Below are positions 18,456 to 35,578 of a stretch of DNA of 64,000 nucleotides, piece by piece. Below the pieces are notes generated by a model. That model was given only the letters and a program-made list of their open reading frames with translations. It ran no database searches and was not told the DNA's origin. The first letter of the stretch is position 1; each line of letters starts with the position of its first letter. The DNA is from Brachynemurus nebulosus (lineage: Eukaryota > Arthropoda > Insecta > Neuroptera > Myrmeleontidae), in the NCBI GenBank assembly GCA_035578155.1, contig JAPWDM010000045.1:48501-112500 (forward strand), read 5' to 3'. The position numbers were made by a program, and so were the translations under genes.

Positions 18456-18461
18456 TGGGTT
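18456..18461. repeat. Left target-site duplication TGGGTT
   Basis: TGGGTT directly precedes the terminal AGTAGTAGG of the Polinton. The same six bases follow the other terminus at 36281-36286. A 6-bp duplication is the known Polinton/Maverick signature. Confidence 0.95.
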
Positions 18462-19034
18462 AGTAGTAGGTTTTGGAGAGTTTGGGATCCACCTTCCCAC
18501 CTGCCGACTTTTTGAGTGACCTCGGCAGGTGGTAAAACTACCGAGGCGGTTCTAGAAGCCTCCGGCGGTGGGTGGAGCAAAATTTTTTTCTAGCCTAGTG
18601 GAACTTGATCCAACCTAAGAGAACCTAAGGAAATTTGGTGTAACCTAACAAAATTTTTTTTAACCTAAGAATTTAAAAATTCCGTAATAGATGGCGCAGC
18701 CACCTTCGAGCCCTGTGAATTCGCTACTAGATGGCGCGGCCACCTTCGAGCCTGTAAATTCGCTACTAGATGGCGTTGCTAGTCTGGATTCCTGTGTGTA
18801 AGTTTGAAAAATTGTCAATAGATGGCATCGAAAACCTTTTTTTTGATAGTTAAACTAGCCATTAAAAGATGGCCTTGCTTTCATAATTTTATAATATTTT
18901 TATCTGAAAACAGGCTTAAACTGTCAGCTGACGTCACTAAAGGTAAACTGATATCAAACAGCGAAGATTTCTCTCTAATATGCGAAAATGAATTTTATCA
19001 TATGATTGTATATTTTTATCTGAAAACAGGTTTA
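18462..19034 (+). repeat. Left terminal inverted repeat of the Polinton
   Basis: Matches the complement of 35708-36280. From the tip inwards it holds CACCTGCCGA/TCGGCAGGTG (a small internal hairpin), four AACCTAA motifs at about 18612-18668, roughly 40-bp repeats with AGATGGCGC, and a TGACGTCA palindrome at 18929-18936. A 77-codon frame (18822-19055) is open in both repeat copies, but this is expected from their identity and is no proof of a gene. Confidence 0.95.
18687..18828 (+). promoter_or_regulatory. Cluster of CTCF-like AGATGGCGC motifs in the left repeat
   Basis: AGATGGCGC at 18689-18697 and 18729-18737, AGATGGCGT at 18768-18776 and AGATGGCAT at 18820-18828. The first three sit in about 40-bp repeats (GCCACCTTCGAGCC between them). 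The core resembles the insect CTCF consensus AGRKGGCGC. Binding is inference only. Confidence 0.4.
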
Positions 19035-19166
19035 TACAGGTTTTCCTCTAAATAAAAACACATTTTTTTTTTTAAATTTTTAATTTTTAATTTTTATTTT
19101 TTTATTAAATAAAAACACATTTTTTTTATTTTTAATTTTTTTTAATTTTTTCTTATTTTAATAAGT

Positions 19167-19172
19167 TTATTT
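19167..19172 (-). terminator. Polyadenylation signal AATAAA
   Basis: AATAAA on the minus strand about 32 bp after the stop of the exonuclease-like gene, inside a T/A-rich stretch (19056-19203). Confidence 0.5.
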
Positions 19173-19203
19173 TAAAAGAAATATTTTTTTACAATAAAAA
19201 TGT

Positions 19204-19716
19204 TTAAATGTTATTACAATAATATTTGTATATGGATATGACATTTTCCATGGCGCAAGTTGCTCCGGAATGATGACCGCATCGAGGGCTAGTGTATGTT
19301 GATGTTATGATTCTCAACTTGGGACAAATTGTTATTTCTTCAAAGTTCATAATGGGCGCTGATGGTAGCAGTCGTTTCAAATAGCGTACTTTTTCTTCTC
19401 CTTTCGTATAGATGATTCGAGTTCCGTGCAGATTGTTTATTAAAATGTATTGTAGTTCCTCGTATTCAATATGTCCGTCCATCCAGGAGAACCCATGATG
19501 ATTTTTCGGCAACCAGCGAGCTGTGCGTTGATCTTTTTCACTTAATTCGCAAAACGGTATTGGTGATTTGAATACATAGTGCTGTAGTATATAATCTTCA
19601 CCACAATTTTCTTCGGAAGAATCGAATTTCAACACAGCCAATTCCTTTATGTAGAATTTCCCATTTGTCGAATTTGGAAATCCTTGGAAGTCAACAATTG
19701 CTGCGTCGGTCTTCAT
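19204..19716 (-). CDS. Polinton-associated exonuclease-like protein (170 aa), function uncertain
   Basis: A 170-residue intact frame that closes the left minus-strand gene block. Residues 7-12 (IVDFQGF) with KEL at 24-26 resemble the first motif of RNase H-fold DEDD exonucleases. IYTKGEEK at 102-109 is followed by a Cys/His-rich tail (C131, C146, H148, H149, C154). Similar arthropod proteins are common near Polinton genes as far as I recall, but the last catalytic Asp of DEDDh enzymes is not evident, so it may be a non-catalytic relative. A TATAAAAA box at 19766-19773 overlaps the end of the upstream capsid gene and gives it its own promoter. The first ATG is used. The protein-coding call is firm; the enzyme class is inferred. 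Confidence 0.65.
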   Translation of the reverse strand: MKTDAAIVDFQGFPNSTNGKFYIKELAVLKFDSSEENCGEDYILQHYVFKSPIPFCELSEKDQRTARWLPKNHHGFSWMDGHIEYEELQYILINNLHGTRIIYTKGEEKVRYLKRLLPSAPIMNFEEITICPKLRIITSTYTSPRCGHHSGATCAMENVISIYKYYCNNI

Positions 19717-19765
19717 TGTGCGTTGTCTAGAGCGAAACTGACTGATTTATAGCTGGATTGCGATG

Positions 19766-19773
19766 TTTTTATA
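19766..19773 (-). promoter_or_regulatory. TATA box of the exonuclease-like gene
   Basis: TATAAAAA on the minus strand about 50 bp before the ATG at 19716. It overlaps the last codons of the major capsid gene. Confidence 0.5.
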
Positions 19774-20974
19774 CATATTTTGTAACAATATTTGTCAATG
19801 GATTATATTGAACCACACGATCATGTAGTAGAAGGCAAAATGCTGATGTATTCTCTGGCACCTCCTTCAACGTTTTAAATTCAATTCGAATATCCACTGG
19901 TCCACTTTTCAAAGTTTCGTTTTGATGAGAACAATCGATGAATATAATTGGCGCGATATTCTTGAATTGCGTTTTGCTTAAAAGCGGTTCATTCTTCTTA
20001 CAATCATAATATGCTTGTTGAAATTTCGAATACATGTGATATGCTACTGCATATCTATCATTACTGAAATCCAAATTCAAATCCATGTACGGGTATTTCG
20101 CAGAATTTAAATAAACTTTGACGTCTGAAAGTTCACAGTGATCGAAAATACTGGAATCTTTATCTTTTTTATTTCGTCGATTCGTTTGTAGAGCGAATAT
20201 AATGTAACGTGGTTTCTCCAATTGAGTCGATGTTTTCACCGTCCAAATGTTTTGTCTCGCTGTTGGAATCGTTGGCTGTATATGCATATCCCATGATCGA
20301 AAAGCAATTGTAATATCTCGACTATTTTCCACATACTTCAACAACTTCAGTTTCTGTTCATCTGCAACCGTAACGTGTGGAACCATCCATTGAATTTTAT
20401 GTATATGGAAAGTGACGTCATCCGTTGGTGATATGACTGCATCGTGATCCGTCCGAGCTCGAGTCAGAATTAGTTGATGTTTCGCATTGATGATAACTTT
20501 CTTGTAATGGTTAAGAAATCCAAACATCCGCGCCAATGGTAGACAGAAATTGAAGTAGCCTTTTTCCGTTACTTTAATTCTTTCACCTGGACACCATCCG
20601 GCGTTGTAGAGTAGTTTGCTTTCATTTTCGTTTAATGCCAAATAATTGATTAACGTTGTTGTCGGTCCCACGTACTTGCATTGATCGATTTCCACGTCGT
20701 TCAGTTCATATCGTATTTCTTCAAACAGATACGCCAATGAATTGTTGGATAATTCCGCTGTAGTCGATACTGTTTTATCACTCTTCAACAATTGTCCTTC
20801 CACATACAGACAACTTTCGTGCGGCAGCAGGATCAGATCTTGGTTTTGACAGCAGATTCGTATTTCGTCGCTGTTTCCAAACGCATTTAGAAACGGCGAA
20901 TAGCAGTGATACTCGATGTTTGAAATGCTCTCATCGAAATCGATTCCAGTATTGATGCTTAAAATGCTGCTCAT
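19769..20974 (-). CDS. Polinton major capsid protein, double jelly-roll type (401 aa)
   Basis: A 401-residue protein in the usual place of the Polinton major capsid gene. It is downstream of the minor capsid gene and has the typical final region: VDIRIEFKT near residue 365, then FCLLLHDRVVQYNPLTN near the end. In Polintons this protein is predicted to form pseudo-hexameric capsomers related to those of adenovirus-like and NCLDV capsids. The frame is uninterrupted. Its ATG overlaps the stop of the 53-codon ORF as ATGA (20971-20974), and no separate TATA box is visible just upstream, so it is probably translated from the minor-capsid transcript by reinitiation. Assignment rests on motif memory and gene order; a fold prediction would settle it. 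Confidence 0.8.
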   Translation of the reverse strand: MSSILSINTGIDFDESISNIEYHCYSPFLNAFGNSDEIRICCQNQDLILLPHESCLYVEGQLLKSDKTVSTTAELSNNSLAYLFEEIRYELNDVEIDQCKYVGPTTTLINYLALNENESKLLYNAGWCPGERIKVTEKGYFNFCLPLARMFGFLNHYKKVIINAKHQLILTRARTDHDAVISPTDDVTFHIHKIQWMVPHVTVADEQKLKLLKYVENSRDITIAFRSWDMHIQPTIPTARQNIWTVKTSTQLEKPRYIIFALQTNRRNKKDKDSSIFDHCELSDVKVYLNSAKYPYMDLNLDFSNDRYAVAYHMYSKFQQAYYDCKKNEPLLSKTQFKNIAPIIFIDCSHQNETLKSGPVDIRIEFKTLKEVPENTSAFCLLLHDRVVQYNPLTNIVTKYV

Positions 20975-21132
20975 TTTTTCCTCTTCAGCTTGAAACCCAA
21001 TTGTCGAAGAAATTGTTTGTTCTCTCTTGTTAATGGCGGTCGTTGTTGCTTCTTCCTCGCCGATCCGTTCACCTTGGTGGCAAGTTGTAGACTGATCGGT
21101 CGCACCACATTTTCGTCTTTAAATACCAACAT
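20971..21132 (-). CDS. Small basic protein between the capsid genes (53 aa)
   Basis: A 53-codon frame starting MLVFKDENVV and ending RQLGFKLKRKK, rich in Lys and Arg. Its ATG lies two bases after the minor capsid stop (TGAAAATG) and its stop overlaps the major capsid start (ATGA), so it exactly bridges the two capsid genes. That packing argues strongly that it is real despite its length. I recall similar short frames with an LTxENxxFLxxLGF pattern between capsid genes of other arthropod Polintons. No function is known to me; a capsid-associated or DNA-binding role is only suggested by charge and position. Confidence 0.75.
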   Translation of the reverse strand: MLVFKDENVVRPISLQLATKVNGSARKKQQRPPLTRENKQFLRQLGFKLKRKK

Positions 21133-21134
21133 TT

Positions 21135-21833
21135 TCACGCCGGCTTCAAATGCAGCTTTACTGTTATCGTTTCGCCTCGAAAATTCACTAAATTGCCGTC
21201 TTGATCCACAATTCGTAAAACTAGAGATGTTATCCGTCTCACGGTCACCGGCATATAAATAACTGTATTCGGTGATTCGCTTATTTTATACCCAGGCTCC
21301 ACTTGAATCGAAAACGAATAAATATTATGTGCTGGAACGTTGTTCAGGTAGCTGTTCGTTGTAATGTTTGTTTCAACTTGTATCAGATTCACTTTCATGA
21401 TATTCGTTGGTTTATCCGAATAGTGGTAATGACCAGCTGCAAGTTTTCGCTTACTGAAGCCAAGTAGCGAGCCAATTGTTCGTTCTTGATCGAAATGAAT
21501 TGTTTCCGTACATTTTATTTCACTTTTTAGCGTATTGTTATTCGCACGAAGTATAAGTTGCGGGCTATCACCCGGTTTTCTCTTCTCTAGTATCCGATCT
21601 TCTATTTGAAACTCCAAATCTTCCAGATCATAATTGCCGACAGGTATCTCGATGCATTTCACTTCTCCATCACCGTAATGGAATAAATTATTTGTTTCGT
21701 CGATATTTGGCACTGCATTGTATGTTTCAAAATTGACCAACCCGCATACATAATCACCCGGCAAATCGATGGGTGGAAAATACTCAGCTGTTAGTATAGA
21801 TGAATCACCACTTAACGTTAATGTTAACGACAT
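21135..21833 (-). CDS. Polinton minor capsid (penton) protein, single jelly-roll type (232 aa)
   Basis: A 232-residue protein beginning MSLTLTLSGDSS and ending in the strand-rich block NLVNFRGETITVKLHL, which is typical of Polinton minor capsid proteins. These are predicted single-jelly-roll proteins forming the five-fold vertices. It leads a three-cistron unit (minor capsid, 53-aa protein, major capsid). A TATA-like TTTAAATATA lies about 45 bp upstream (21874-21883), giving a leader of roughly 20 nt. The frame is intact and the length is normal for the family. Confidence 0.82.
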   Translation of the reverse strand: MSLTLTLSGDSSILTAEYFPPIDLPGDYVCGLVNFETYNAVPNIDETNNLFHYGDGEVKCIEIPVGNYDLEDLEFQIEDRILEKRKPGDSPQLILRANNNTLKSEIKCTETIHFDQERTIGSLLGFSKRKLAAGHYHYSDKPTNIMKVNLIQVETNITTNSYLNNVPAHNIYSFSIQVEPGYKISESPNTVIYMPVTVRRITSLVLRIVDQDGNLVNFRGETITVKLHLKPA

Positions 21834-21873
21834 GGTGACTAAGATACGAATGACAGAAACTTCTTGCCACGAG

Positions 21874-21883
21874 TATATTTAAA
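21874..21883 (-). promoter_or_regulatory. TATA-like box of the capsid unit
   Basis: TTTAAATATA on the minus strand, 41-50 bp upstream of the minor capsid ATG. It is weaker than the TATAAATA boxes of other units. Confidence 0.4.
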
Positions 21884-21907
21884 GTATAGATGAGAAGTGC
21901 AACAAAA

Positions 21908-22312
21908 TTATTGAAAATAATTTGTATTCCATAAAAATTCTAGACATAAATGTCCACAGTTGTACTGTTCATAATTTTGGTATCTGTTATAATTATATTT
22001 AATATTATTGCCATGTAAATATTGCACAACTTCTGCGGGTGGTGACAAATTTCCAAAACTATCAAAATATTCGACGTTCTTGTTATCTTTGGCGTACGCT
22101 ACCCAATGGCTTCCTGGTCCTGATGAATTATCCAAATTGACGACTCCACACTCCTTTCGCCTTGGCCGTTTCGGTAAATCATCTCTCATGAACACGCCAC
22201 GAAAATTGGATAAATATTTGTTTCCAAACTGATAAATGTCGCGATCAGTTAATGGTCGATCGGGTAGCTCGCTTAGCGGTTTTTTGATTCGATGTAAAGT
22301 CCCAAACCTCTT
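21908..22312 (-). CDS. Adenain-like capsid maturation cysteine protease (open frame without N-terminal AUG)
   Basis: The protease core has the His of GSHWVAY, the Asp of EYFDSFG, and the Gln/Cys of YEQYNCGHLCLEF, the C5/Ulp1-like triad seen in Polinton proteases. The first AUG is at 22189, but recognisable family sequence (FRGVFMRDDLP, and LTDRDIY before it) begins well upstream, and the frame is open back to a stop at 22313-22315 with no AUG. It overlaps the end of the PLA2 gene in the -1 frame. An in-frame slippery heptamer A AAA AAC at 22279-22285 would fuse it to the PLA2 protein. So its product is probably the C-terminal part of a frameshift fusion of about 398 residues. Alternatives are non-AUG initiation or use of the internal AUG. 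Confidence 0.8.
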   Translation of the reverse strand, partial: KRFGTLHRIKKPLSELPDRPLTDRDIYQFGNKYLSNFRGVFMRDDLPKRPRRKECGVVNLDNSSGPGSHWVAYAKDNKNVEYFDSFGNLSPPAEVVQYLHGNNIKYNYNRYQNYEQYNCGHLCLEFLWNTNYFQ

Positions 22313-23106
22313 CTATATGGTTTCAAATAAAGTCCAGTTCCAGATTTGGATCCAAGAGCAATTGCTTCCATCATCCTGTTATGACGTTCATTTTCATCCA
22401 ATTGTTTCTTTGCTGTTTTATACGCATTCACTGCTTTCGCAACACCAGCAGCACCTCCGGCAAGTGATCCTACAGCAGACAGGCCGGCAAAAAGTGGAAC
22501 TAGGAATGGTAAAATTCCACCAGTTTTTGGAATTGGAATGATTCTCGGTGTTGTAAATTGACTGTCCTTCTTCTTTTTGAAAATATTCTTCGCAGCTTTC
22601 AGTGCAAATTTTATCGCATTCTTAATAGTTTTCGGTTTCTTTTTCTTCAATATGCTTCTCAAATCACGAATTCCGGCACCAAATATTAATTTCTGTCCTT
22701 TTTTGTTCTTCTTCTTTGAATGACCCATTCCTAGTTTTACTTTCGACTTCATCGCGTTCGTTACAGTCCAAGCAGCAGCTCGCTCGCCAAGATTTGCGTC
22801 CGACGATTTAACTCGCTCCCACGCTTTATCAGCTAGTATTAAATCAGCTTTATGTCGATCTTCAATATCTTTAAACTGTGAATAGGCGATGTCGTGTTCT
22901 TTGCATGCAGCGTCCAATTTGTTGATACCCGGATCACCTCGTAACAATCGCTGGCGCAGTCTAGTTCCAGGTCCACAATACTGATAGCCAGGTATATGAA
23001 GTTCAAATGGTAATTTGTTGATTATTCCGTTTACTATGCCACAACCGGATCTTCTCACACCGCTTGTCTTCTCACGACTAACTGCTAGTTGTTTCCGCGT
23101 CAACAT
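22273..23106 (-). CDS. PLA2-domain minor virion protein (277 aa)
   Basis: A phospholipase-A2-like domain of the parvovirus VP1 type spans about residues 38-80. The calcium loop is YCGPGT (43-48) and the catalytic helix is CKEHDIAY with His71-Asp72. Lys-rich stretches follow (131-180). A hydrophobic Gly-rich segment GGILPFLVPLFAGLSAVGSL (196-215) recalls the tail of adenovirus core protein X-type proteins. In viruses such PLA2 domains breach endosomal membranes; here that role is inferred. It starts a minus-strand unit from a TATAAATA box at 23145-23152, back to back with the ATPase promoter. The last codons contain the A AAA AAC slip site leading into the protease frame. Confidence 0.85.
   Translation of the reverse strand: MLTRKQLAVSREKTSGVRRSGCGIVNGIINKLPFELHIPGYQYCGPGTRLRQRLLRGDPGINKLDAACKEHDIAYSQFKDIEDRHKADLILADKAWERVKSSDANLGERAAAWTVTNAMKSKVKLGMGHSKKKNKKGQKLIFGAGIRDLRSILKKKKPKTIKNAIKFALKAAKNIFKKKKDSQFTTPRIIPIPKTGGILPFLVPLFAGLSAVGSLAGGAAGVAKAVNAYKTAKKQLDENERHNRMMEAIALGSKSGTGLYLKPYRRGLGLYIESKNR
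22279..22285 (-). promoter_or_regulatory. Probable -1 ribosomal frameshift site A AAA AAC
   Basis: The minus-strand heptamer A AAA AAC lies in the zero frame of the PLA2 gene (codons TCA AAA AAC CGC TAA), two codons before its stop. Slipping back one base enters the protease frame (AAA AAA CCG CTA), which is otherwise without an AUG. Downstream, CGATC and GATCG about 10 nt apart could form a small stem. Confidence 0.65.
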
Positions 23107-23144
23107 TTAAAAGTGAACTGAAAACAAAAGAACAGATGCTGTAC

Positions 23145-23165
23145 TATTTATATATGTTATAAATA
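23145..23165. promoter_or_regulatory. Divergent promoter with two back-to-back TATAAATA boxes
   Basis: TATAAATA on the minus strand at 23145-23152 serves the PLA2 gene (ATG 23106). TATAAATA on the plus strand at 23158-23165 serves the ATPase gene (ATG 23224). Only five bases separate them. Confidence 0.7.
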
Positions 23166-23223
23166 TGCTGGAAATTTACTCAACTTTATTAGTATGAGAA
23201 ATAGTGTTATCTGATCAACATCG

Positions 23224-23946
23224 ATGACGATGTCTTCTTCATTCGTTAAACAACCGGAGACGCTACCAGTCATAAATTTCGAGGTTTTTTTGGACGAGAC
23301 TAATGTCAAGAAAAATGGTCCACTGTTGCCGACGAGTATTAGAGCGATCATCTGCGGTCCAAGTGGATGCGGCAAAACGTCACTTCTACTATCACTTATC
23401 CAGGATCCTAATGGTGTGGCATTTGAAAACATATACATCTATTCCAAATCATTACACCAACCGAAATATCAATATCTGAAACGAATCATTAAAGGTGTTA
23501 AAGGTTTGGGTTATTTTACATACTCTAATAACGATGACGTCATACCGCCGAAAGAAGCGCGACCAAATTCGCTGGTAATATTCGACGATGTATCTGCGCG
23601 GGAGAAAAAAGCCATAATAGAAGAATATTTTAGCCACTCTCGACACTACAATGATGATTGTTTCTACTTGACGCAAACGTATACAGCGGCACCCAAACAT
23701 CATGTACGGGATAATGCGAATCTTGTTGCAGTCTTCAAACAGGATGATCTCAACCTCAGACATATCTACGATGATCATATTAACTCCGACATGTCGTTCA
23801 ATCAATTCAAAGAATTATGCAGAGAGTGTTGGCGTGATAACTATGGATTTTTAACTATTTGCAAAGAAGATGATATACGCAATGGAAGATACCGAAGCAA
23901 GTTTGACCACTTCTGGAAAGCATCAACATCCGAAAGCCGCTTCTAA
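23224..23946 (+). CDS. FtsK/HerA-type genome-packaging ATPase (240 aa)
   Basis: Walker A GPSGCGKTS at residues 45-53 and Walker B LVIFDD at 117-122, followed by a polar sensor region with FYLTQTY (Gln151) and a likely arginine finger R162 in HHVRDNAN. This is the A32-like packaging ATPase found in Polintons, which would pump DNA into capsids. The length is normal. ATG at 23224 gives MTMSSS; a second ATG at 23230 is possible. It has its own TATAAATA box 59 bp upstream, shared back to back with the PLA2 gene. The stop is followed at once by a 12-bp tandem repeat array. Confidence 0.93.
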   Translation: MTMSSSFVKQPETLPVINFEVFLDETNVKKNGPLLPTSIRAIICGPSGCGKTSLLLSLIQDPNGVAFENIYIYSKSLHQPKYQYLKRIIKGVKGLGYFTYSNNDDVIPPKEARPNSLVIFDDVSAREKKAIIEEYFSHSRHYNDDCFYLTQTYTAAPKHHVRDNANLVAVFKQDDLNLRHIYDDHINSDMSFNQFKELCRECWRDNYGFLTICKEDDIRNGRYRSKFDHFWKASTSESRF

Positions 23947-24046
23947 GCTGGTTCTAAGCTGCTTCCAAGCTGGTTCTAAGCTGCTTCCAAGCTGGTTCTA
24001 AGCTGCTCCTAAGCTGCACCTAAACTGCTACCAAGCTGCTTCTATA
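23941..24046 (+). repeat. 12-bp tandem repeats (AAGCTGGTTCTA type)
   Basis: About eight imperfect units of AAGCTG(G/C)TTCT/C follow the ATPase stop. Units alternate so that a 24-bp period is visible. The array lies upstream of the next promoter (TATA at 24121). Confidence 0.85.
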
Positions 24047-24120
24047 TTGATCCAAACATTTTTCGAACTGGTTTGGTAGCCGGTATAGCAGTTTCGAACT
24101 GGTCCGCCTAAATACGACCA

Positions 24121-24128
24121 TATAAATA
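24121..24128 (+). promoter_or_regulatory. TATA box of the DUF8207-fibre-integrase unit
   Basis: TATAAATA, 70 bp before the ATG at 24191. An initiator-like CTTCAGTTTT lies about 30 bp downstream. Confidence 0.65.
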
Positions 24129-24190
24129 CAGCAGTCGCATGCGATAGAGCTTCAGTTTTTGAGAAACCGTTCTAAGAAGCAGTCATCGAG

Positions 24191-25282
24191 ATGGATAAAA
24201 AGACGATTAAAAAGAACATTATAAAAGCGGCAAGCAATATACGTAAAAAATTTAATGCTTTACGATCTGGAAAACTGGAGTCAAATATGTTACTGCAAAG
24301 TACATTGGAACCAGTCACTACTCCGCTTAAAGAAATAGCTACAAAGTTAAATGGTGACAAGAAGAAACATCCTATTAAAGTGGAAATAAAAGAAGAAGAA
24401 GATGCGCAAGTATCGGATACGTTCACACCTAAAATTAAAAAGAAAAAATTGGAAAAACAAACGGCAAACTACTATACTCTACCAACAAAGGAGGAGGAAG
24501 ATACTTCAATACAAGATATTCCAGAAGATGTTTTTGAAGCGTATCCAGAAGAAGAACAAAATGTATTTGAAACACCGAAATTTCTTGGATCAGCGCAAAG
24601 TGTTGCTCGAAAATTGATGCCAGTAGCTGAAGATTTACCAAAACAGTTTGGTCCAATAGCAAGAAAATACTTACAACTATACCTTCATCCCAACAGCGGA
24701 ATTGATGTGGTATACGGACCATACAAAAAAGATGATGAATGGATGATTGGAAATCAGTCGTTTCAAATAGCTGGTGATGATATAATAATTGGTGATATTG
24801 TGTACGAAGGAACACCTGGATTATATGAATTGATTTTCATGAACTCGCCAAAAATTGGTTCATATCATACCAAAGATTTAAATGCGTATAAACAAATTTT
24901 AAAGCAAACAAATGCACACAGACGAAATTACAGTCCAAACCAGCAAATAAAAGGGAGCTCGAGTTATAAATACATAAACATTATTAGTCAGTTGTTCCCA
25001 ATCAGTTCCGTTAAAAAACATATACCAAGAAAAATATATGATACAAGAAGTCGCGTCGGTGGTGCTCCAAAATCAGCTAGTGTTGGCGGTACTCCAAGAT
25101 CGGGACATGGTCTGATGCAGTTTAATAACTTGAAAAAAGACTATATATACTGGGACAATGCGAATGAACTGGTTAGTAGACTGCGATTATTAGTGGCGTC
25201 ACAAGAAGCTGGACACAGCGGTCACAATAACGAAATAATATCCATCATTGAAGAACTGAAAGAAGCAGATATCATCGAGTGA
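24191..25282 (+). CDS. DUF8207-like Polinton protein (363 aa), function unknown
   Basis: First gene of a three-cistron plus-strand unit. The N-terminal third is highly charged (Lys-rich 3-30, Glu/Lys-rich 60-125) and probably disordered. Residues about 155-247 form a conserved-looking block with VVYGPYKKDDEWMIGN, a GDDIIIGD run, YEGTPGLYELIF and KQTNAHRRNY, which matches my memory of DUF8207 proteins in arthropod and cnidarian Polintons. The C-terminal part is Gly/Ser-rich, then helical. No enzyme motif is visible. Its place beside capsid, ATPase and integrase genes suggests a virion or packaging role, but that is inference. The stop TGA is two bases from the next ATG. Confidence 0.75.
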   Translation: MDKKTIKKNIIKAASNIRKKFNALRSGKLESNMLLQSTLEPVTTPLKEIATKLNGDKKKHPIKVEIKEEEDAQVSDTFTPKIKKKKLEKQTANYYTLPTKEEEDTSIQDIPEDVFEAYPEEEQNVFETPKFLGSAQSVARKLMPVAEDLPKQFGPIARKYLQLYLHPNSGIDVVYGPYKKDDEWMIGNQSFQIAGDDIIIGDIVYEGTPGLYELIFMNSPKIGSYHTKDLNAYKQILKQTNAHRRNYSPNQQIKGSSSYKYINIISQLFPISSVKKHIPRKIYDTRSRVGGAPKSASVGGTPRSGHGLMQFNNLKKDYIYWDNANELVSRLRLLVASQEAGHSGHNNEIISIIEELKEADIIE

Positions 25283-25284
25283 AA

Positions 25285-25701
25285 ATGGACAAATTCGGTC
25301 GTGTGCGTAACAGAAACATAACTATTGACAAATTCGGTCGGGTGCATGATAAAAGTATTAAGAAGCAGTTGCTTAAAGACATTGGTTTGAAGATGACGCA
25401 ATCGGGGAACTATGATTTTGGAAACAAACAACTATCCAATATAAAGGATCCGACTGATGATCAAGATGTGGTGAATCTGAAATTTTTAAAGAGTTTTACA
25501 ACAGAGAAACTTGCTGAACTAACAGAAACAGTCGAAATCATCAAAACAAAGATTGAAAATGCTACGCACCTGCTGACCCAGGCAATGCAGCTTTCTACGC
25601 AGAATAAATTATGGATGAATCGAGAAATTTTCGCATTTAATCGTCGAATGTCGAGGACTGAAGAACGTCTTGATAAATTGCTGAAACCTGCTGAGACGTA
25701 A
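25285..25701 (+). CDS. Short fibre-like coiled-coil protein (138 aa)
   Basis: Starts at the ATG in TGAAAATG, two bases after the upstream stop. The N-terminus has two copies of a motif, DKFGRVRNRNI (residues 2-12) and DKFGRVHDKSI (15-25). Next comes FGNKQLSNIKDPTDDQDVVN (45-64), a pattern very like the repeat that precedes trimerising segments in phage tail-fibre and baseplate proteins (NxKxxxNxxxPxxxxDAxx). From residue 65 on the sequence is heptad-like and helical. A trimeric fibre or spike is the best guess. I do not know an experimentally described homologue in Polintons. The integrase ATG follows one base after its stop. Confidence 0.7.
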   Translation: MDKFGRVRNRNITIDKFGRVHDKSIKKQLLKDIGLKMTQSGNYDFGNKQLSNIKDPTDDQDVVNLKFLKSFTTEKLAELTETVEIIKTKIENATHLLTQAMQLSTQNKLWMNREIFAFNRRMSRTEERLDKLLKPAET

Positions 25702-25702
25702 A

Positions 25703-26620
25703 ATGAGCAAAGCACAAGTGGTTCGTGAACTACATAAACCAGCGCGAAAAAATTTTCCACGGAGACGTGTGATTGTGAAAGGAATTGACGATCTCTGGCA
25801 ATGTGATTTAATTGAGATGGGTGCCTACGCTTCAGTGAATAAAAAAATCAATTATCTGTTGACAACAATCGACGTATTTTCAAAACATGCATGGGCGGTA
25901 CCCGTTAAAAATAAAACTGGAAAAGAAGTAACAGCGGCATTTGAATCGATACTTAAACAAGGACGGAGGCCAGATAATTTGCAAACGGACGACGGCAAGG
26001 AATTTTATAATCAGCTGTTTAAAACGCTCATGGATAAATACAACATCAACCATTATTCAACATTTTCAACCAAAAAAGCGTCAGTGGTGGAGAGATTTAA
26101 CAGAACGCTGAAGACTGAAATGTGGAAGAAGTTTAGTTACAATGGATCGTATCGATGGCTGGATATACTAGACGACTTAATGGACAGTTACAATTCACGG
26201 AAACATAGAACAATAAAAATGCGACCGCGTGATGTTACACCGAGCAAGGAGAAATTGCTCCTTTCAACTGTTTACAATCATATAAAAGTTGTGGATCTAC
26301 CGAAATATGACGTTGGTGATGTGGTTCGCATTAGCAAGCATAAATCTCAATTCGATAAAGGATATCTACCATCATGGACGACGGAACTTTTTAAAATCAA
26401 AAAGGTACGATTAACCAATCCGGTTACGTATCTGTTAGAAGATTATCATGGTAATCCGATTAAAGGTGGATTTTACCAAGAAGAATTACAAAAAGTTAAA
26501 TATCCAGATGTATATTTAGTGGAAAAGGTGTTGAAAAAAAAGAAAGATAAAGTATACGTGAAGTGGCTCGGCTTTCCAAGTAGCGCCAATAGCTGGATTG
26601 ATAGCAAAGACTTGGTATGA
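25703..26620 (+). CDS. Retroviral-type integrase with chromodomain (305 aa)
   Basis: Catalytic core of the rve family with Asp35 (WQCDLIEM), Asp96 (LQTDDGKEF) and Glu130 (SVVERFNRT). This enzyme would process the element ends and join them to host DNA, giving the 6-bp duplication. A basic C-terminal region (about 200-262) precedes a chromodomain (270-305) with VYVKWLGFPSSANSWI, which in other integrases directs insertion to modified chromatin. No N-terminal HHCC zinc finger is evident. The ATG lies one base after the fibre-gene stop (TAAAATG), so it is probably translated by reinitiation from the same transcript. The frame is intact. Confidence 0.95.
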   Translation: MSKAQVVRELHKPARKNFPRRRVIVKGIDDLWQCDLIEMGAYASVNKKINYLLTTIDVFSKHAWAVPVKNKTGKEVTAAFESILKQGRRPDNLQTDDGKEFYNQLFKTLMDKYNINHYSTFSTKKASVVERFNRTLKTEMWKKFSYNGSYRWLDILDDLMDSYNSRKHRTIKMRPRDVTPSKEKLLLSTVYNHIKVVDLPKYDVGDVVRISKHKSQFDKGYLPSWTTELFKIKKVRLTNPVTYLLEDYHGNPIKGGFYQEELQKVKYPDVYLVEKVLKKKKDKVYVKWLGFPSSANSWIDSKDLV

Positions 26621-26807
26621 TATCCCCACCAACATGGAGCAGCGAATACGTATGGTGGAGCGGAGCAGTTGCAGTATCCCCCACCAACATGAAGCAGCGA
26701 ATACGTATGGTGGACCGGAGCAGTCGCAGTATCCCCCACCAACATGGAGCAGCGAATACGCATGATGAGCCGGAGCAGTTGCAGTATCCCCCACCAACAT
26801 GGAGCAG
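26621..26807 (+). repeat. 55-bp tandem repeats upstream of the last plus-strand gene
   Basis: Units begin TATCCCC(C)ACCAACATG at 26621, 26675, 26730 and 26785 (the last partial) and contain AGCAGCGAATACG and GGAGCAGT. The array runs straight into the TATA box at 26808. It creates false frames on both strands. Confidence 0.9.
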
Positions 26808-26815
26808 TATAAAAT
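26808..26815 (+). promoter_or_regulatory. TATA box of the split gene
   Basis: TATAAAAT at the end of the 55-bp repeat array, 71 bp before the likely ATG at 26886. Confidence 0.55.
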
Positions 26816-26885
26816 TATGATGATGACGATGAGCCGGAGCAGTTTCATTTTTTTTGGCGAAGCAATATCCAGTGAAAACACAACA

Positions 26886-27454
26886 ATGAGTGAAAGTCTT
26901 CAACACCTTATAATAGTGGAGGAATCCATGGCTAGAACTCGATTGCTGAAGAAGATGTTGAATAAAGCCATTCGGTTATCTGATTTGGAGATGATCCGAT
27001 CCATAGCATCAAGAGATCGTGACTTTTTTTTCCTGAAAAAATAACATCAGCTATAGAATGGGGTTCGTCTGTGGAAACTTTTGATCTTCTATTCACACTT
27101 ACCTTCAACGAATCTGATATTGGAGAAGACCGCCTAGATGGATTCGACACGCTGACATACTTTTTTACGTTGTGGATGCGAAAAACGATAACATATGCTC
27201 GTCCGGAACTGCTGGATCGTATATTGAAACTTGTGGAAGAACATGGTATTCCTGGATTGTGCTTCAATCCAAAGAGCGTAGAAGAAGACGGTGAATTGTT
27301 GGAGTGGATTGTGCAGAACATTGAAAAAGGCACAGCCAATCAATCAGCACTCCTGGGTTGGGAAAGTGGTCCAGATACGGGCGCGTGGCCGTCGACGAAC
27401 TTACAAGACTACTTAGATATATACAAAATTTTGAATACGAATTTCAATATTTAA
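26886..27454 (+). CDS. Unknown Polinton gene in two frames joined by a slip site
   Basis: The first frame starts at ATG 26886 (MSESLQHLIIVEES) and stops at 27042-27044. A second open frame, -1 relative to it, runs from about 27023 to 27454 with no ATG near its beginning. The T TTT TTC heptamer at 27026-27032 is in the zero frame and a -1 slip there leads directly into the second frame, giving about 189 residues. The predicted protein is helical and acidic (EDRLDGFDTLTY, LLDRILKLVEEHG) and matches no family I know. It could instead be one gene broken by loss of a T from an original run of nine, or a sequencing error. A polyadenylation signal follows at 27667. Confidence 0.55.
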
Positions 27455-27849
27455 TTTTTCATGTATTTTTTTTTTTTTTCATGATGTATTTTCTTTTTTT
27501 AATTGTTTTCTTAATTTTTTTTTCATCATGTATTTTTTATAATTTTTTATTTTTTAATTTTTTGGATTTTTTTTGTTTTTAATTTTTTTTTTTTTTGTAT
27601 TTTTTAAATTTTTTTCATGTATTTTTTTTGAAATTATAATATTTTGACATGTACATATTTTATTTTAATAAAACTAAAATTTGAATTAATAATGGCCATT
27701 ATTATTTTACAAACTAATTACTTAATAAGTACGACTTATAAACTAAAACCATGGTTTTAAAAATATTTACAAAATTAACAAAGAAAATATATACAAAATG
27801 AACAAAAAAGATATATATACAAAATTAAAAAAAAGATATATATACAAAA
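27455..27849. terminator. Shared 3' region with opposing polyadenylation signals
   Basis: A T-rich spacer between convergent genes. AATAAA on the plus strand at 27667-27672 serves the split gene. AATAAA on the minus strand at 27659-27664 could serve the polymerase gene. No coding potential. Confidence 0.5.
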
Positions 27850-30800
27850 TTAACAAAAATAAAAATCGTCTATTTTGTAGTGCCCCCATGGGAGAGTTTT
27901 AAGTTTATTGTTGGGTACTATGAACCGTTTATCATCGTCATTTGATAGTGCGGCCTTATTCACTAAATGTGTGTATAGTCGATGTTTTAAACTGCGGAAA
28001 ACACTCATTTGTTTATATAACACGGCACTTGAGTCTTTGCTTATCACACAATTTATATAGTCTTTAACGTCTATTTCGTTTTTCACCACATCTTTTTTAA
28101 CACCTTTGAGTTTTTTAATTGGGGGCACATCACCGTCTTTCACTATACAGTAGGATTTAGCTTTAACACCGACAAATTGTTTAATTATTGTCCCAGAACA
28201 CTCATCTTTAAATTTACCGAGCACTTTTTTATTTAATTGAGGCAGTCCATAGATGTTATCCGCGGCATAATCACTCGTATCAAAATACTCACTAATATCA
28301 GACTTAATGTCGGCGTAAAAATTGTCCGTTTCTATCCGGTATATAAAACTGTCGGTATCCATGTACAGTAAATCCACTTTGTCATCATATTTCGGTTTTA
28401 TATAACCGTAGTGGAAATCGTACATTAAAGTCTTGGATAACTCGAGCACGCTAAATCCTACGTAAATCGGTTTATCATACTTCACTTTCAAACGGTCCAT
28501 TTGTATAGCGACCAGATTTTCATTGATAATTGAACAACTGTGAAAGTTCGGTCTGCTTATCAAATTATTAGCACCCAACTGTTTACGAATATTCCCCCAA
28601 TGAGTCACTAGTCGCACATCAACACGTTTATCCACATTCTCCATTGTTTTCCCGAAAACACTATTATTTTTTAACTTGAAATAATCTTTTTCAAAACTAT
28701 TTGTCGCCTTAGAACGGAGCTCGGTGTTTAAGTCAATGTATTTTTTTAGCCACGGAGATTGTTTAAACTGGAGTGCACGATGTATTTTCTTTAACTTTAG
28801 TCCATATTTTAAACACTGTTTCAAATTCCGATAATGGATCACATACTTCTTCTTATCGTAAACGTTGGCGACCAATTTGCTGTCTTTAGATGTGATGTAT
28901 GGCGGCTTCATCTGCTCCGGACAGAATGGTAGATCTTGATGGTAATCGTGTAGTGTTTTCGGGTACTCGAGGTCGACTTCCAAAATGTATCCAACATCAG
29001 CGTCATCCGGAACCATTGGTATGTTGATATTATCCAATTCGTGTTCTGGGACCCACCGGAAATGTCTGATCGGCAAATGTTGCAACATGGCCCATCCGTA
29101 CAAGTTGTTGGCGTCCAGATATTCGATGTAGGTCGACGGCTTCGTGGGGTCGTAGTCCGACATGTATTTATTATTAGCTTCGCTAAAACGACCGCAACAC
29201 TGTGTTAATCCACCACGCATACCCTTTTTGATGAAGTGAATCATGTCGATGTCCGTTAGTAGCTCCAGTTCCACTTTCGTATATTTCAACATGGCGTCCC
29301 AGCTCAAGCCTGGTGCGGTGTAATATTGGCACGGATCCAATTTGTACGTGTTCAGGCACAGGTTCCGGAAATTTTCAAAGACATCCGCCAATAGCAACAC
29401 ATCTGTTTTCAGATACAAGTCCGAATACTGCCCCAAATTTTGGATGTTGAATTCATTCCATACTCGCTGTGCACGCTGGTATTCTTCATCGGTAATACTG
29501 GATGACTTCAGGCTGCTATGGAATGCCGCTTTTGGTGGTAGAGCGCGTTCATTGAGTCGTTCAACACTGTTGACGTATTCGTACGGGAATACTCCTTTTT
29601 GCTTGATTAAATTGAAAAGGTGGTCTTCAGGAAATGCTCGGCGAACTTCGGCGAACTGCTCCGGCTTCAAATTCTCAGCAAGTTTATCTAAACTGCTCGC
29701 CATAAACCGGAACGAATCGATAAAACGCAGCTGGATGGTTTTAATTTTGAATTTGCTGGATTCTTCATCGTCTTCATCATCTTCGTCATCTAGATCTTCC
29801 ACTTCTTGATTGGCATCGACTGGTAGATATTTTGTGAAAGAAATGTAGCGTTCCTTGTTGTTCGGAATGACATCGATTCGTTCCCTGGAGACTCCAAATT
29901 CCCGTACGATAAAGTGCGCATCATATCCAGATAAATTATGGAAAACGATCGGGATGAATTTCGGTAGTCTGTAAAGCCGATTACACTGGCTATGTGCGGC
30001 ACCTCGAAATTCACCCGTTAGATGGTCATGATCCCGCACACGATCGTTGCCCAATTTTTTGCCGCATATGGAACAATCTTCGACTAATCCAAATACTAAA
30101 TAGTCCAGCGCTGTTAATGGTTTCATCGGAATTTCCTTTCGTAAAATTTTATGTAGTCGTTGGGCATCTTCTTCCAATTTTTCCATAAAAACTTTCGCAC
30201 AGTTCGGCCCGCGATACGTTTCGAATTTGTTTAATGATTCATCATACGAACACTTGATGTAATATGCGAAGCTGAATGGTTCGTGGATATGCGTGGTGTT
30301 CGTAAACGATCCATCTGGATTCGGTACGCATGTATCGCATGGTTTTAATATGGATTCGAAGTCCGCGTAGATGGTAAACGGGACGCGCATCTGCTTGGCA
30401 TAATTTTGAAATTTCAAAATGCTGTCTTTGCCAGGACTTGGTATTACAGTGCGTACTTTGTTGCAGTCTTCTTTAGCATGTTCGATAAGCCGCTCTTCTG
30501 TTCGAAAGAATTGTAGGCACCCATCACATAACCATTTAGCACCATTGCGCATTGAAAGTTGACGTCCAACGAGCCGACTCAAGTTCTTTATCCAGCAGTA
30601 GTGACTGGTTTCGCCATTTTCAATGTACAGCAGATTCACATGGATGTTCCTTTTGTTTTTCGTATAGTGCAGCGGTCCGACAATACTTTTTTCTTCCAGT
30701 CCATAAACATTGACGCTGATGTTGTTGAGCGATTCGAATAATTTTATGTCTTTGATTTTCACAGGAAACTCGATATCGTCGAAATTTAAAATTGTCGAAT

Positions 30801-31842
30801 AATGTGGATATGAAGCGATGCGATTTGTGTTTCGTTCAACTGGATGTAAGGCTGATGTTATCGCCCATGCGAAGCAAGCCTGGTCTTCATTTTGAATATT
30901 AACGACCGCCATTTTTCTCTTGATCCATGCCGGTAGTTCGATATACGACGAAGCCCGAAGTGGATTGTATTTATTAACGTTCACTTCCAAATATCGGACT
31001 TCTAGGAGCGACCACCCACTATCTCGTTCCTGGAATTCTTCGCTCTTGCGCACTACAGTCGACACCATATTTCGGTAAATTTCTTCCATGTTGGTGGATT
31101 CGCAAACAGGAACATTTCTGGTGTTGAACGACTTCAAATCCAGCAGTAAATTATCGTCCTTGTCGAATTTTGCATATAATCCAAACAATTCGAAATTAGT
31201 TTTAAATGATGTATTCTTCTCCAGTTCCATATGCAGCAGCTGAAGCACATTTTCCTTAACTTCATCCAAAAATTCTTCAATGGACTGGAAGTACTCGGAA
31301 CTCTTCACCCGGTAGCTGATTATTCTGGTTTTGAACGCGCTGTTAATCGTTTCCACATTTACGTTTCCGGTACCGCGACATAATTTATTTTTGTGGGCCG
31401 CGCTGCGTAAATGCCCATTGAATGTTGAAATCGGTATATCCGCAACGCATACTTCGCAACGTCTGGTACCCCGATCCGCCTTTAGTTTTTTAGATGGACT
31501 GCCATTTTGTTCACCGGTAGCGCGCTTTCTCGAAATAGGACCGCTGCTGGTTGAGGGCTGCTCATGATCACGTACAACGCTGGTTGTGGGTTGTCCATGT
31601 TTATTAGCCATATGCCGCTCCAGATCACCTTCAACATATTCGCCGCAGTAATCGCACAATACAGCCGTTGAATGGAATTTCTTCAGATGTTGTCGTAAAT
31701 TATCCATTCTCGTAAACATGACCCCACACCGACTGCATTTTAAAGATGAGCCATTGTCGCCATGTTTCGTCTTCAAATGTCTTGTCAAAGCATCCCGACG
31801 GCTGAATCCTGCTGGGCACATTTCACACTTAAACAACGCCAT
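27850..31842 (-). CDS. Protein-primed family B DNA polymerase with N-terminal zinc fingers (1330 aa)
   Basis: Numbered from the ATG at 31842. Three C2H2 fingers come first (C6/C9/H22/H27, C36/C39/H52/H57, C63/C66/H77/H82), and another Cys/His cluster lies near 129-155. A segment with ACFAWAI (Cys323) and SHYCWI (His414) looks like a thiol-protease-type fold. The 3'-5' exonuclease begins at IYADFESIL (Asp494). Between its motifs is an endonuclease-VII-like zinc site CSICGKK...DHDHLTG...CN (590-620). Polymerase motifs are YLDANNLYG (909), NSVFGKTMEN (about 1060) and YMDTDS (1160). It would replicate the element by protein priming at its ends. The upstream ATG (31890) lies in a likely 5' UTR intron, so 31842 is preferred. 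Confidence 0.95.
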   Translation of the reverse strand: MALFKCEMCPAGFSRRDALTRHLKTKHGDNGSSLKCSRCGVMFTRMDNLRQHLKKFHSTAVLCDYCGEYVEGDLERHMANKHGQPTTSVVRDHEQPSTSSGPISRKRATGEQNGSPSKKLKADRGTRRCEVCVADIPISTFNGHLRSAAHKNKLCRGTGNVNVETINSAFKTRIISYRVKSSEYFQSIEEFLDEVKENVLQLLHMELEKNTSFKTNFELFGLYAKFDKDDNLLLDLKSFNTRNVPVCESTNMEEIYRNMVSTVVRKSEEFQERDSGWSLLEVRYLEVNVNKYNPLRASSYIELPAWIKRKMAVVNIQNEDQACFAWAITSALHPVERNTNRIASYPHYSTILNFDDIEFPVKIKDIKLFESLNNISVNVYGLEEKSIVGPLHYTKNKRNIHVNLLYIENGETSHYCWIKNLSRLVGRQLSMRNGAKWLCDGCLQFFRTEERLIEHAKEDCNKVRTVIPSPGKDSILKFQNYAKQMRVPFTIYADFESILKPCDTCVPNPDGSFTNTTHIHEPFSFAYYIKCSYDESLNKFETYRGPNCAKVFMEKLEEDAQRLHKILRKEIPMKPLTALDYLVFGLVEDCSICGKKLGNDRVRDHDHLTGEFRGAAHSQCNRLYRLPKFIPIVFHNLSGYDAHFIVREFGVSRERIDVIPNNKERYISFTKYLPVDANQEVEDLDDEDDEDDEESSKFKIKTIQLRFIDSFRFMASSLDKLAENLKPEQFAEVRRAFPEDHLFNLIKQKGVFPYEYVNSVERLNERALPPKAAFHSSLKSSSITDEEYQRAQRVWNEFNIQNLGQYSDLYLKTDVLLLADVFENFRNLCLNTYKLDPCQYYTAPGLSWDAMLKYTKVELELLTDIDMIHFIKKGMRGGLTQCCGRFSEANNKYMSDYDPTKPSTYIEYLDANNLYGWAMLQHLPIRHFRWVPEHELDNINIPMVPDDADVGYILEVDLEYPKTLHDYHQDLPFCPEQMKPPYITSKDSKLVANVYDKKKYVIHYRNLKQCLKYGLKLKKIHRALQFKQSPWLKKYIDLNTELRSKATNSFEKDYFKLKNNSVFGKTMENVDKRVDVRLVTHWGNIRKQLGANNLISRPNFHSCSIINENLVAIQMDRLKVKYDKPIYVGFSVLELSKTLMYDFHYGYIKPKYDDKVDLLYMDTDSFIYRIETDNFYADIKSDISEYFDTSDYAADNIYGLPQLNKKVLGKFKDECSGTIIKQFVGVKAKSYCIVKDGDVPPIKKLKGVKKDVVKNEIDVKDYINCVISKDSSAVLYKQMSVFRSLKHRLYTHLVNKAALSNDDDKRFIVPNNKLKTLPWGHYKIDDFYFC

Positions 31843-31847
31843 TTTTC

Positions 31848-31949
31848 CTAAATTCACAAAAAATATTGTTTTAGTTTTAAGTTCTTGCATACAAAAATTA
31901 GTAATAATAATTTCAAAATAGAAATTATTATTAAATGTTTCTTACTCAC
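31848..31949 (-). other. Probable 102-bp intron in the polymerase 5' UTR
   Basis: On the minus strand a strong donor G|GTGAGTAAG (intron from 31949) is followed 102 bp later by TTTTTTGTGAATTTAG|G (intron to 31848), six bases before the ATG at 31842. Size and signals fit an insect spliceosomal intron. Confidence 0.6.
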
Positions 31950-32106
31950 CAATATTGAAAAAAAAAAATGTAATAAAATTTATGAAATTAAACTTTGAAA
32001 TAAAAAGCTAACTTTAAAAATTCGCAAAATACGATATGATGACACGAAGCACACTGTACTTTATGCAATCAGAAGACGTAATGGTTTTAAGACCGTTTAT
32101 CATGTG

Positions 32107-32114
32107 TATTTATA
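32107..32114 (-). promoter_or_regulatory. TATA box of the polymerase gene
   Basis: TATAAATA on the minus strand. With transcription start near 32080 it gives a first exon of about 130 nt before the donor site. A TGACGTCA palindrome lies 16 bp further upstream (32130-32137). Confidence 0.6.
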
Positions 32115-32129
32115 TCCTTTTTCCATTTA

Positions 32130-32137
32130 TGACGTCA
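32130..32137. promoter_or_regulatory. TGACGTCA (CRE/ATF-like) palindrome upstream of the polymerase
   Basis: An 8-bp palindrome just upstream of the polymerase TATA box. The same site stands upstream of the OB-like gene (35571-35578) and in both inverted repeats. Confidence 0.5.
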
Positions 32138-32474
32138 TACAGATGTTAGCAAGTTACAACAAGCTTGATTGCACAATGTGATGCAATAATTTTACTTGCT
32201 CAAACATGTTGCATTTCAAAGCGGCGACGATTTCATATGTAAAAAAAATGTGCGGAATGTGCTGAGTAAGCTATTTTCAAGGTTAATCTTTTGCATTCCA
32301 AAAAATCTTTCTTGTAGATATTATTATAACTTTTAAAAATAAAATTATATTTTCAAATATTCACAAAACGTGGTTAAATTTGAGCGAAAAAAATATTTTA
32401 CATTTTATTCACGGAATTCTCCTAGCCCATCCTGTAAATTCTAAAAATTGTAAAAGAAAATTGTTTAAACTAGA

Positions 32475-32560
32475 ATTATTGTAGTCTGGAATCATTTCCA
32501 CCCTTAGTTGGGATATCATTAGCTCGTGTAATATGAAATGTCGTTTTCCGACATTTTAGT
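32475..32560 (+). repeat. Fragment of the 190-bp satellite-like repeat inside the Polinton
   Basis: TAGTCTGGAATCATTTCC and GTGTAATATGAAATGTCG match units of the array at 48230-48820 and the inverted copies at 13085-13425 outside the element. Confidence 0.6.
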
Positions 32561-32569
32561 GAAAAATTT

Positions 32570-33306
32570 TTTAAGAAAATTTTGTGATATGTTTCGGTAA
32601 ATGTATGTTGATTATCAAAAATAATACTACCTACCAATATTCATTTAGTGTGCACCCTAATTAAATTTCGTAAAAATACCACTTTTTGAAAAAATTTTGT
32701 GACATGTTTCGGTCAATATGTTTATTATCAAAAATAATACTACCTATCAATATTCATTTTAGTGTGTACCCTAATTAAATTTCGTAAAAATACCGCTTTT
32801 TGAAAAAAATTTTGTGACATGTTTCGGTCAATATGTTTATTATCAAAAATAATACTACCTACCAATATTCATTTAGTGTGTACCCTAATTAAATTTCGTA
32901 AAAATACCACTTTTTGAAAAAAATTTTGTGACATGTTTCGGTCAATATGTTTATTATCAAAAATAATACTACCTACCAATATTCATTTTAGTGTGTACCC
33001 TAATTAAATTTTCGTAAAAATACCACTTTTTGAAAAAAATTTTGTGACATGTTTCGGTCAATATGTTTATTATCAAAATTAATACTACCTACCAATATTC
33101 ATTTTAGTGTGTACCCTAATTAAATTTTCGTAAAAATACCACTTTTTGAAAAAAAATTTGTGACATGTTTCGGTCAATATGTTTATTATCAAAATTAATA
33201 CTACCTACCAATATTCATTTAGTGTGTACCCTAATTAAATTTCGTAAAAATACCACTTTTTGAAAAAAATTTTGTGACATGTGTCGGTCAATATGTTTAT
33301 TATCAT
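32570..33306 (+). repeat. Tandem array of about 115-bp units (6 full, 1 partial)
   Basis: GTGACATGTTTCGGTCAATA recurs at 32699, 32814, 32928, 33044, 33160 and 33274, with a diverged first unit at 32584. Units contain AATAATACTACCTA and GTGTACCCTAATTAAATTT. Neighbouring units are nearly identical. No frame runs through it. Confidence 0.95.
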
Positions 33307-35033: not shown

Positions 35034-35441
35034 TTACAAAATTCGCCATTCAGCATCCTCCACGATTTCAAGAAGATCCAACGTTTTGAATTGCAATTTA
35101 TGAGTTAGTCCAATGGGTCCATTATTCATAATACCCAGTTTTGGATTGCTTTGCAACCATGCCAGCATCTGCTCGTTCAAATTGTCAAATCTCGCTGGTA
35201 ACGAAATGTATCCAATTTCCAATTCCAATATTGTCTTCATTTTCGATGAATCGAATTTTGACGGCAATTGACTTGCGCCCATTATTTTATATACTTTTCC
35301 AATTTCCATATCAAAAAGTTTAATCCATCGTTTAACAGCACCAAGATGATTCAATTCCTCCACAAAATTTCCAGCCATTTTTTGAATTAAGTTTCTGTTT
35401 CCAGATGAAGCACCAGTAGTAATGGATTCCATTGTTGGCAA
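35034..35441 (-). CDS. Small OB-fold-like Polinton protein (135 aa), function uncertain
   Basis: An intact 135-residue frame next to the right inverted repeat. VKRWIKLFDMEIGKVYKI (residues 36-53), a strand-rich stretch and YISLPARFDNLNEQM resemble small OB-fold-like proteins often seen with Polintons and related elements in arthropods, which I would guess bind single-stranded DNA. No catalytic motif is present. The gene has a clear TATAAAAG box at 35546-35553 and a TGACGTCA palindrome 18 bp further upstream. ATG at 35441 is used; a second Met four codons later is possible. The coding call is supported by length, promoter and position; the role is inference. Confidence 0.65.
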   Translation of the reverse strand: MPTMESITTGASSGNRNLIQKMAGNFVEELNHLGAVKRWIKLFDMEIGKVYKIMGASQLPSKFDSSKMKTILELEIGYISLPARFDNLNEQMLAWLQSNPKLGIMNNGPIGLTHKLQFKTLDLLEIVEDAEWRIL

Positions 35442-35545
35442 TAATTAATTGTTAACACAACAATTGAAAATTCACAACAATAAGATTTAATGTTTTTTCA
35501 CTAAAGTTTCGAACAAAATTGTAACTGAAGAAATTCTGTCGCGCC

Positions 35546-35578
35546 CTTTTATAGCAGAAAGATAGCCTGATGACGTCA
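35546..35578 (-). promoter_or_regulatory. Promoter of the OB-like gene: TATAAAAG plus TGACGTCA
   Basis: TATAAAAG at 35546-35553 on the minus strand and TGACGTCA at 35571-35578. The ATG lies 105 bp downstream. Confidence 0.6.

Follow-up and report, generated by a model that had tools for sequence, protein, structure and literature searches.

The window, a 64,000-nucleotide stretch of the genome of the neuropteran Brachynemurus nebulosus, contains a complete Polinton/Maverick element at 18462-36280. Its terminal inverted repeats (18462-19037 and 35705-36280) are 576 nt each and 99% complementary, and they are flanked by a perfect 6-bp target-site duplication, TGGGTT, at 18456-18461 and 36281-36286. 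Long terminal inverted repeats with a 6-bp target-site duplication are the mark of Polintons/Mavericks (Eupolintoviridae), and the genes expected of Eupolintoviridae are also present, namely an rve integrase, a double jelly roll capsid protein, an A32-like ATPase and an adenain-like protease.

Measured from stop to stop, the ORF of the double jelly roll major capsid protein lies at 19769-21118 on the minus strand (PF21738, E 1.2e-120), and those of the A32-like packaging ATPase (23215-23946; PF04665, E 2.7e-7) and the rve integrase (25685-26620; PF00665, E 6.7e-12) are on the plus strand. An ORF of 1363 aa (27850-31941, minus strand) has the right size for a protein-primed DNA polymerase B. 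It begins with C2H2 zinc fingers (Pfam PF00096, E 1.9e-8) and also has a weak endonuclease VII match; no Pfam polymerase model matched it at E 0.01, and it may carry motifs of DNA polymerase B. The interval between the integrase and this large ORF holds a 143-aa ORF (27023-27454, plus strand) with no Pfam match at E 0.01.

The remaining two genes are the subject of this study, and both are on the minus strand. The first encodes a protein of 277 aa (22273-23106; Pfam PF08398, E 8.5e-15) with a phospholipase A2-like (PLA2) domain at residues 35-94 (22825-23004) and a weak sequence resemblance to the VP1 capsid proteins of parvoviruses (best E 0.0014); it ends in K-N-R-stop. The second is the protease ORF of 134 aa, stop to stop (21908-22312), which was identified by an adenain profile match, AlphaFold and Foldseek and which lies in the -1 frame relative to PLA2.

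The PLA2-protease junction

Read on the minus strand, the last codons of PLA2 are GAA TCA AAA AAC CGC TAA. They contain the slippery heptamer A AAA AAC (22279-22285) in the phase X XXY YYZ, and a single sense codon separates the heptamer from the stop codon TAA (22275-22273). The two frames overlap by 40 nt (22273-22312), and no stop interrupts the -1 frame between 22312 and 21908, so that a -1 slip at the heptamer enters the protease frame. The codons and ORF coordinates therefore bear out the first-pass annotation, which had placed the heptamer in the zero frame of PLA2 and the protease in the frame reached by the slip. A canonical heptamer in the zero frame, inside the overlap with a -1 ORF, is what a -1 frameshift site should have, and A AAA AAC is the sole canonical in-frame heptamer of PLA2. 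From the element's own rate (nine heptamers in ten ORFs totalling about 3600 codons, a rough figure, the MCP and POLB coordinates not being divisible by three), approximately 0.03 canonical heptamers would be expected by chance in the 13-codon overlap.

The first ATG of the -1 frame is at 22187-22189, within the motif FRGVF|M, and the protease frame contains no ATG before 22189. Because the stretch from the start of PLA2 to the protease motif contains ten ATGs, that of PLA2 itself included, leaky scanning to the protease is unlikely. The same ten ATGs count against a non-AUG start, although near-cognate codons do occur in the -1 frame (AAG at 22312, AGG at 22309, ATC at 22288, ATT at 22237 and GTG at 22195). 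Moreover, neither a non-AUG start nor a separate or spliced mRNA predicts a conserved heptamer in phase, and we consider it very improbable that the protease N-terminus is provided in either of these ways.

The 30 codons from 22190 to 22279, upstream of the first AUG, encode recognizable protease sequence. A profile of 23 protease sequences, whose rows were hand-picked from the window and 73 matches, aligned with adenain (1avp; E 1.9e-9), and the alignment starts ahead of the Met, at position 10 of the profile and residue 5 of the chain. The claim that protease sequence extends upstream of its first AUG is thus borne out. AlphaFold modelled the protease with a mean pLDDT of 93.1, and the 30 N-terminal residues, whose codons all precede the first AUG, had block means of 94, 96 and 97 and formed helix 1 (residues 12-22) and most of strand 1 (26-31). 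The best PDB matches of the model in Foldseek were adenovirus proteases (E about 3e-5). Residues F26, R27, G28 and V29 were invariant in the 23 aligned sequences, as were H58, D73, Q101 and C108, which we take to be the catalytic residues; the conserved His, Asp, Gln and Cys together with the fold identify an adenain-like cysteine protease. According to the model and the alignment, the AUG-less stretch is real protease and structurally integral to it. Initiation at the first AUG would yield a protein with no helix 1 and hardly any of strand 1. The -1 product in the window is hence coding and has no AUG of its own.

We also compared the AUG-less stretch between copies of the element. The dN/dS ratios in the -1 frame of the window against L032, L123 and L130 were 0.15, 0.15 and 0.09, and ratios below 1 were obtained in 13 of 15 valid pairs among six loci, many of them near saturation; the exceptions were L032-L123 (2.48) and L032-L126 (1.03). 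Six of 21 pairs, all with L134, were dropped, as the aligner had removed the internal stop of L134 and shifted its codons. L036 carries an internal stop as well and stands outside the dN/dS pairs; its AUG-less stretch had no synonymous and six other changes, close copies being noisy. The window and L032 differ by 8 synonymous and 7 other changes when read in the -1 frame; the corresponding counts are 4 and 11 for the zero frame and 2 and 13 for the +1 frame. In the 84 copies that are at least 90% similar to the window, change by codon position was 0.40, 0.87 and 1.17 in the AUG-less stretch, 0.39, 0.53 and 4.08 at the PLA2 end and 0.32, 0.58 and 2.37 after the ATG, and the third-position excess was thus weaker in the AUG-less stretch than on either side of it. 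Many of these 84 copies are probably no longer under selection. The comparisons suggest that constraint on the AUG-less stretch is present but uneven, and not evident in every pair.

Conservation in genomic copies and relatives

We searched the insect's own genome (960 Mb, 138 contigs) for further copies; the PLA2 search scored 140 of 1382 first-look candidates. A AAA AAC was intact in 102 of the 106 copies read, the window's own included. The first set comprised 90 copies, 84 at least 90% similar to the window over the junction and six of a subfamily of about 84% similarity, and in 87 of them, again counting the window, the heptamer was kept. The three losses were a C for the first A (L029) and one A too few (L044 and L045). 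In L091, where the heptamer is intact, a stop codon TAA replaces the preceding TCA. A divergent query yielded 16 stretches of further subfamilies, all but one of them (L125, one A short) with an intact heptamer. Around the heptamer the sequence varied: the tails after AAC included CGC TAA, CGT TAA, CAC TAA, CAC TGA, TAC TGA and TAC CAA TAA, L128 and L129 have ACA instead of TCA before it, and synonymous changes occur in the adjoining codons while the heptamer itself is kept. L126-L129 retain it despite a strongly different protease start (KKLPISIPRRPLSNIE in L126 vs KKPLSELPDRPLTDRD in the window), and no Met was present in their AUG-less stretch or in that of the 15 loci compared. The conservation of the heptamer in related Polintons, which the first-pass annotation had suggested as a check, was found, diverged subfamilies included.

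Two lines of potential evidence were not used. In alignment A3 the heptamer does not vary, but this was set aside because the rows had been picked by requiring it, and the rows of the dN/dS comparison, likewise selected for having it, are no evidence of its invariance either. Long open frames of 403, 410 and 415 aa were considered as natural fusions and rejected; two of the three, L043 and L135, have an intact heptamer, which means that their frame change lies elsewhere.

Nine copies, that of the window among them, tied at the top PLA2 score with 100% identity and no stops in PLA2, which suggests recent activity of this Polinton family. Among 150 protease matches in the genome, 23 head-to-head pairs were present, 1.6-4.8 kb apart, for example C125:255453-255821(-) with 258123-258491(+), C1:184376311(-)/184379102(+) and C84:19596736(-)/19599898(+). 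The PLA2 search of the genome gave three head-to-head pairs among the matches listed. The pairs look as if palindromic half-elements made up many of the copies.

Beyond the genome, we read the best 120 of 3153 PLA2 relatives, whose named sources are the insects Chrysoperla carnea, Trypoxylus dichotomus and Pyrocoelia pectoralis. In 118 of these 120 proteins, the dipeptide KN occurs within the last 12 residues; P0096 and P0110 have no KN near the end. The KN was followed by no residue in 42 proteins, by one in 68, by two in four, by five in three and by nine in one. The preceding residue was S (56), P (36), Q (9), T (7), A (5), L (2), K (2) or R (1), for which an A-ending codon is possible in 118 of 118 cases, compared with 181 of 231 KN elsewhere in the same proteins, where 50 residues have no A-ending codon at all. 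As the sequences are akin to each other, no probability is attached to these counts. With the heptamer kept in 102 of 106 genomic copies and 118 of 120 relatives ending in KN plus a short tail, a chance origin of the heptamer is untenable.

The conservation of KN could also reflect a C-terminal peptide motif of PLA2, with the heptamer as a by-product and the protease made in some other way. The sequence before the site is indeed conserved too, as GLYLKPY..GLGLYL in a consensus of 27 sequences. A peptide motif, however, would be expected to hold a fixed distance from the C-terminus, and the tails after KN vary from 0 to 9 residues; nor would it account for an A followed by AAA AAC in 102 of 106 copies despite synonymous change in the adjoining codons. 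We regard the peptide motif as highly unlikely to be the explanation. A slip site, by comparison, is expected to keep its codon phase and to tolerate any short tail, which fits the PLA2 ends observed. Even diverged relatives preserve the phase and position of the heptamer while the peptide tail behind it varies, which is consistent with a function at the nucleotide level. The heptamer and its phase are thus conserved as expected of a frameshift site.

On the protease side, a script classed the starts of 173 database entries (73 plus 100 more, the latter from the best 120 of 6468 found). In 19 of them the first residue is the Met of FRGVF|M, as would be seen if there were no upstream start. Another 64 were assigned a start 0-3 residues ahead of (L)P; a few of these, P0140 and P0184 among them, fit the group poorly. 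A class of 147-159 aa (29 entries) and a VFGxxIP-like class (19 entries) have their own, longer starts; 26 start elsewhere and three were not classed. The remaining 13 were flagged because their upstream sequence reads KK followed by a residue that a codon beginning with C can encode, which is what A AAA AAC gives in the -1 frame; two of these (P0229 and P0266) are false. In all 11 true entries, KK and LP are exactly four residues apart, as in the window, and L126 shows the same four-residue spacing from KK to IP.

Some of the 64 entries that begin shortly before (L)P may come from relatives with an AUG close to the PLA2 stop. There, ribosomes might terminate at the PLA2 stop and restart in the protease frame at a start codon close to it, with KN being kept for another reason. 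In the window, such coupled reinitiation is at odds with the missing ATG before 22189, and with the lack of Met in the 15 loci compared; it also leaves KN near the end of 118 of 120 relatives unexplained. We therefore judge reinitiation to be improbable.

One of the 11 true entries, P0209 (198 aa, five members), is read in a single frame in which a PLA2 tail (80 aligned columns, 45% identity) meets a protease (131 columns, 50%) at KKKKL. It could be a real in-frame fusion or the result of a sequence indel. This junction, together with the short A run in the window, would be compatible with transcriptional slippage on A6 that adds one A in part of the mRNAs and so fuses the frames. Six A residues are short for polymerase slippage, and slippage of this kind has no need of the codon phase that the K-N of 118 of 120 relatives implies, which makes it most improbable as the source of the fusion.

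A scan of GTDB with the protease alignment found one relative outside the clade, L092:3351-3785, an AUG-started adenain-like protease whose upstream neighbour is on the opposite strand; the same scan with the PLA2 alignment gave no match. The contig of L092 is titled a bacterial MAG and is probably mis-binned virus sequence. Its other ORFs look Polinton-like by eye, the protease alone having been tested. Scans of IMG/VR with protease, PLA2 and capsid queries revealed no Polinton relative and only one phage-like contig, L001; its short, weak PLA2-like stretch (L001:1028-1987, 34% identity) was not accepted as a relative of the element.

As L092 is AUG-started and many entries have starts of their own, the AUG-less state of the protease is apparently found in some members of the family and not in others. 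Related elements with an AUG-started protease and no heptamer had been named beforehand as the case that would speak against frameshifting. This challenge was withstood in part: the distant L092 does start at an AUG, with its upstream neighbour on the other strand, and among nearer relatives start codons close to the PLA2 stop are possible.

Predicted frameshifting and its meaning

We conclude that programmed -1 ribosomal frameshifting, yielding a PLA2-protease fusion, is the best explanation of the junction and very probably the correct one. The proposal of a canonical -1 site that joins PLA2 to an AUG-less protease is supported by the sequence as well as by its relatives. We prefer frameshifting because, alone among the routes considered, it accounts for both the translation of the AUG-less helix and strand and the in-phase heptamer. 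Ribosomes on the PLA2 gene would reach A AAA AAC, where the majority would continue and stop one codon later, producing PLA2. A fraction would slip back one base, the P- and A-site tRNAs re-pairing from AAA AAC to AAA AAA, and this minor share would enter the -1 frame and synthesize the fusion, which would then be the lesser product, perhaps in a fixed ratio to PLA2 as the first-pass annotation proposed. The fusion would presumably take the protease into particles, and the protease may later free itself.

A frameshift site is also expected to have a stimulatory RNA structure a few nucleotides downstream, and the first-pass annotation had pointed to the RNA in this region. No stable fold was found 3' of the heptamer in single sequences (z 0.90 for 129 nt and -0.28 for 69 nt), 34 of 60 shuffles were as good as the best stem in a stem search, and the consensus fold (-0.63 kcal/mol) showed no conserved structure. 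Rfam gave one chance-level match, under its gathering score. These results cover nested pairings near the site, as modelled by single-sequence folds, the stem search with shuffles and the consensus fold. The missing 3' structure is the main gap in the case for frameshifting. Efficiency might be set by a long-range element, by the nascent peptide GLYLKPY..GLGLYL or by the close stop, or it might be low.

Retroviruses use A AAA AAC as an efficient slip site in eukaryotic cells, for instance in gag-pro of mouse mammary tumour virus. The Polinton junction resembles retroviral gag-pro in having a canonical slippery site immediately upstream of the stop codon of a structural-protein gene, here the putative one of PLA2, an AUG-less protease in the -1 frame and, as predicted here, a fusion of structural protein and protease. 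It differs in that Polintons are double-stranded DNA transposons or viruses, the partner is PLA2, the protease is an adenain-like cysteine rather than an aspartic protease, and no 3' stem or conserved fold was found. Adenain itself is translated from its own AUG, unlike the Polinton protease. The fold and the conserved residues are nonetheless shared with adenovirus adenain (PDB 1avp, 1nln, 4wx4), whose N-terminal region is matched by the AUG-less part.

Conserved -1 frameshifting is, to our knowledge, rarely documented in eukaryotic double-stranded DNA viruses and transposons, and the first-pass annotation knew of no report of it in Polintons. A program prediction does exist for adintoviruses: in the available text of a 2024 preprint using KnotInFrame (PMC11071296), -1 frameshifts are suggested in some penton ORFs, and a similar relationship is suggested for potential hexon-adenain fusions. 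Those predictions concern slippery sites in the same broad group of elements, but the partners are penton and hexon, not PLA2, and no conservation analysis is given there for the PLA2-protease junction. In the portions of the literature on this group that were available, the preprint was the only mention of -1 frameshifting found, and no report of a frameshift at the PLA2-protease junction was found. Sf Maverick 1 and 2 are insect Mavericks that likewise carry a PLA2 protein ('CAP') and an adenain-like PRO; in the accessible part of their description (PMC5803895), however, CAP and PRO are listed as separate ORFs, and 'frameshift' there concerns errantiviruses. The site described here would thus bring canonical -1 frameshifting to a gene pair and a kind of genome that are both new.

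A broader reading, to which we give even chances, is that the whole insect Polinton clade makes its maturation protease only as a -1 fusion to the capsid-associated PLA2, an independent gag-pro strategy that works without a conserved 3' RNA stimulator and whose efficiency GLYLKPY..GLGLYL or the near stop may set. If frameshifting takes place as proposed, it would offer a frameshift site without an obvious RNA stimulator, and the annotation of the protease gene would change, 19 of 173 database entries starting inside the fold. It would also provide a direct and cheap test of whether these Polintons still build virions. Polintons would then possess a gag-pro-like means of setting the dose of their protease and of delivering it into particles.
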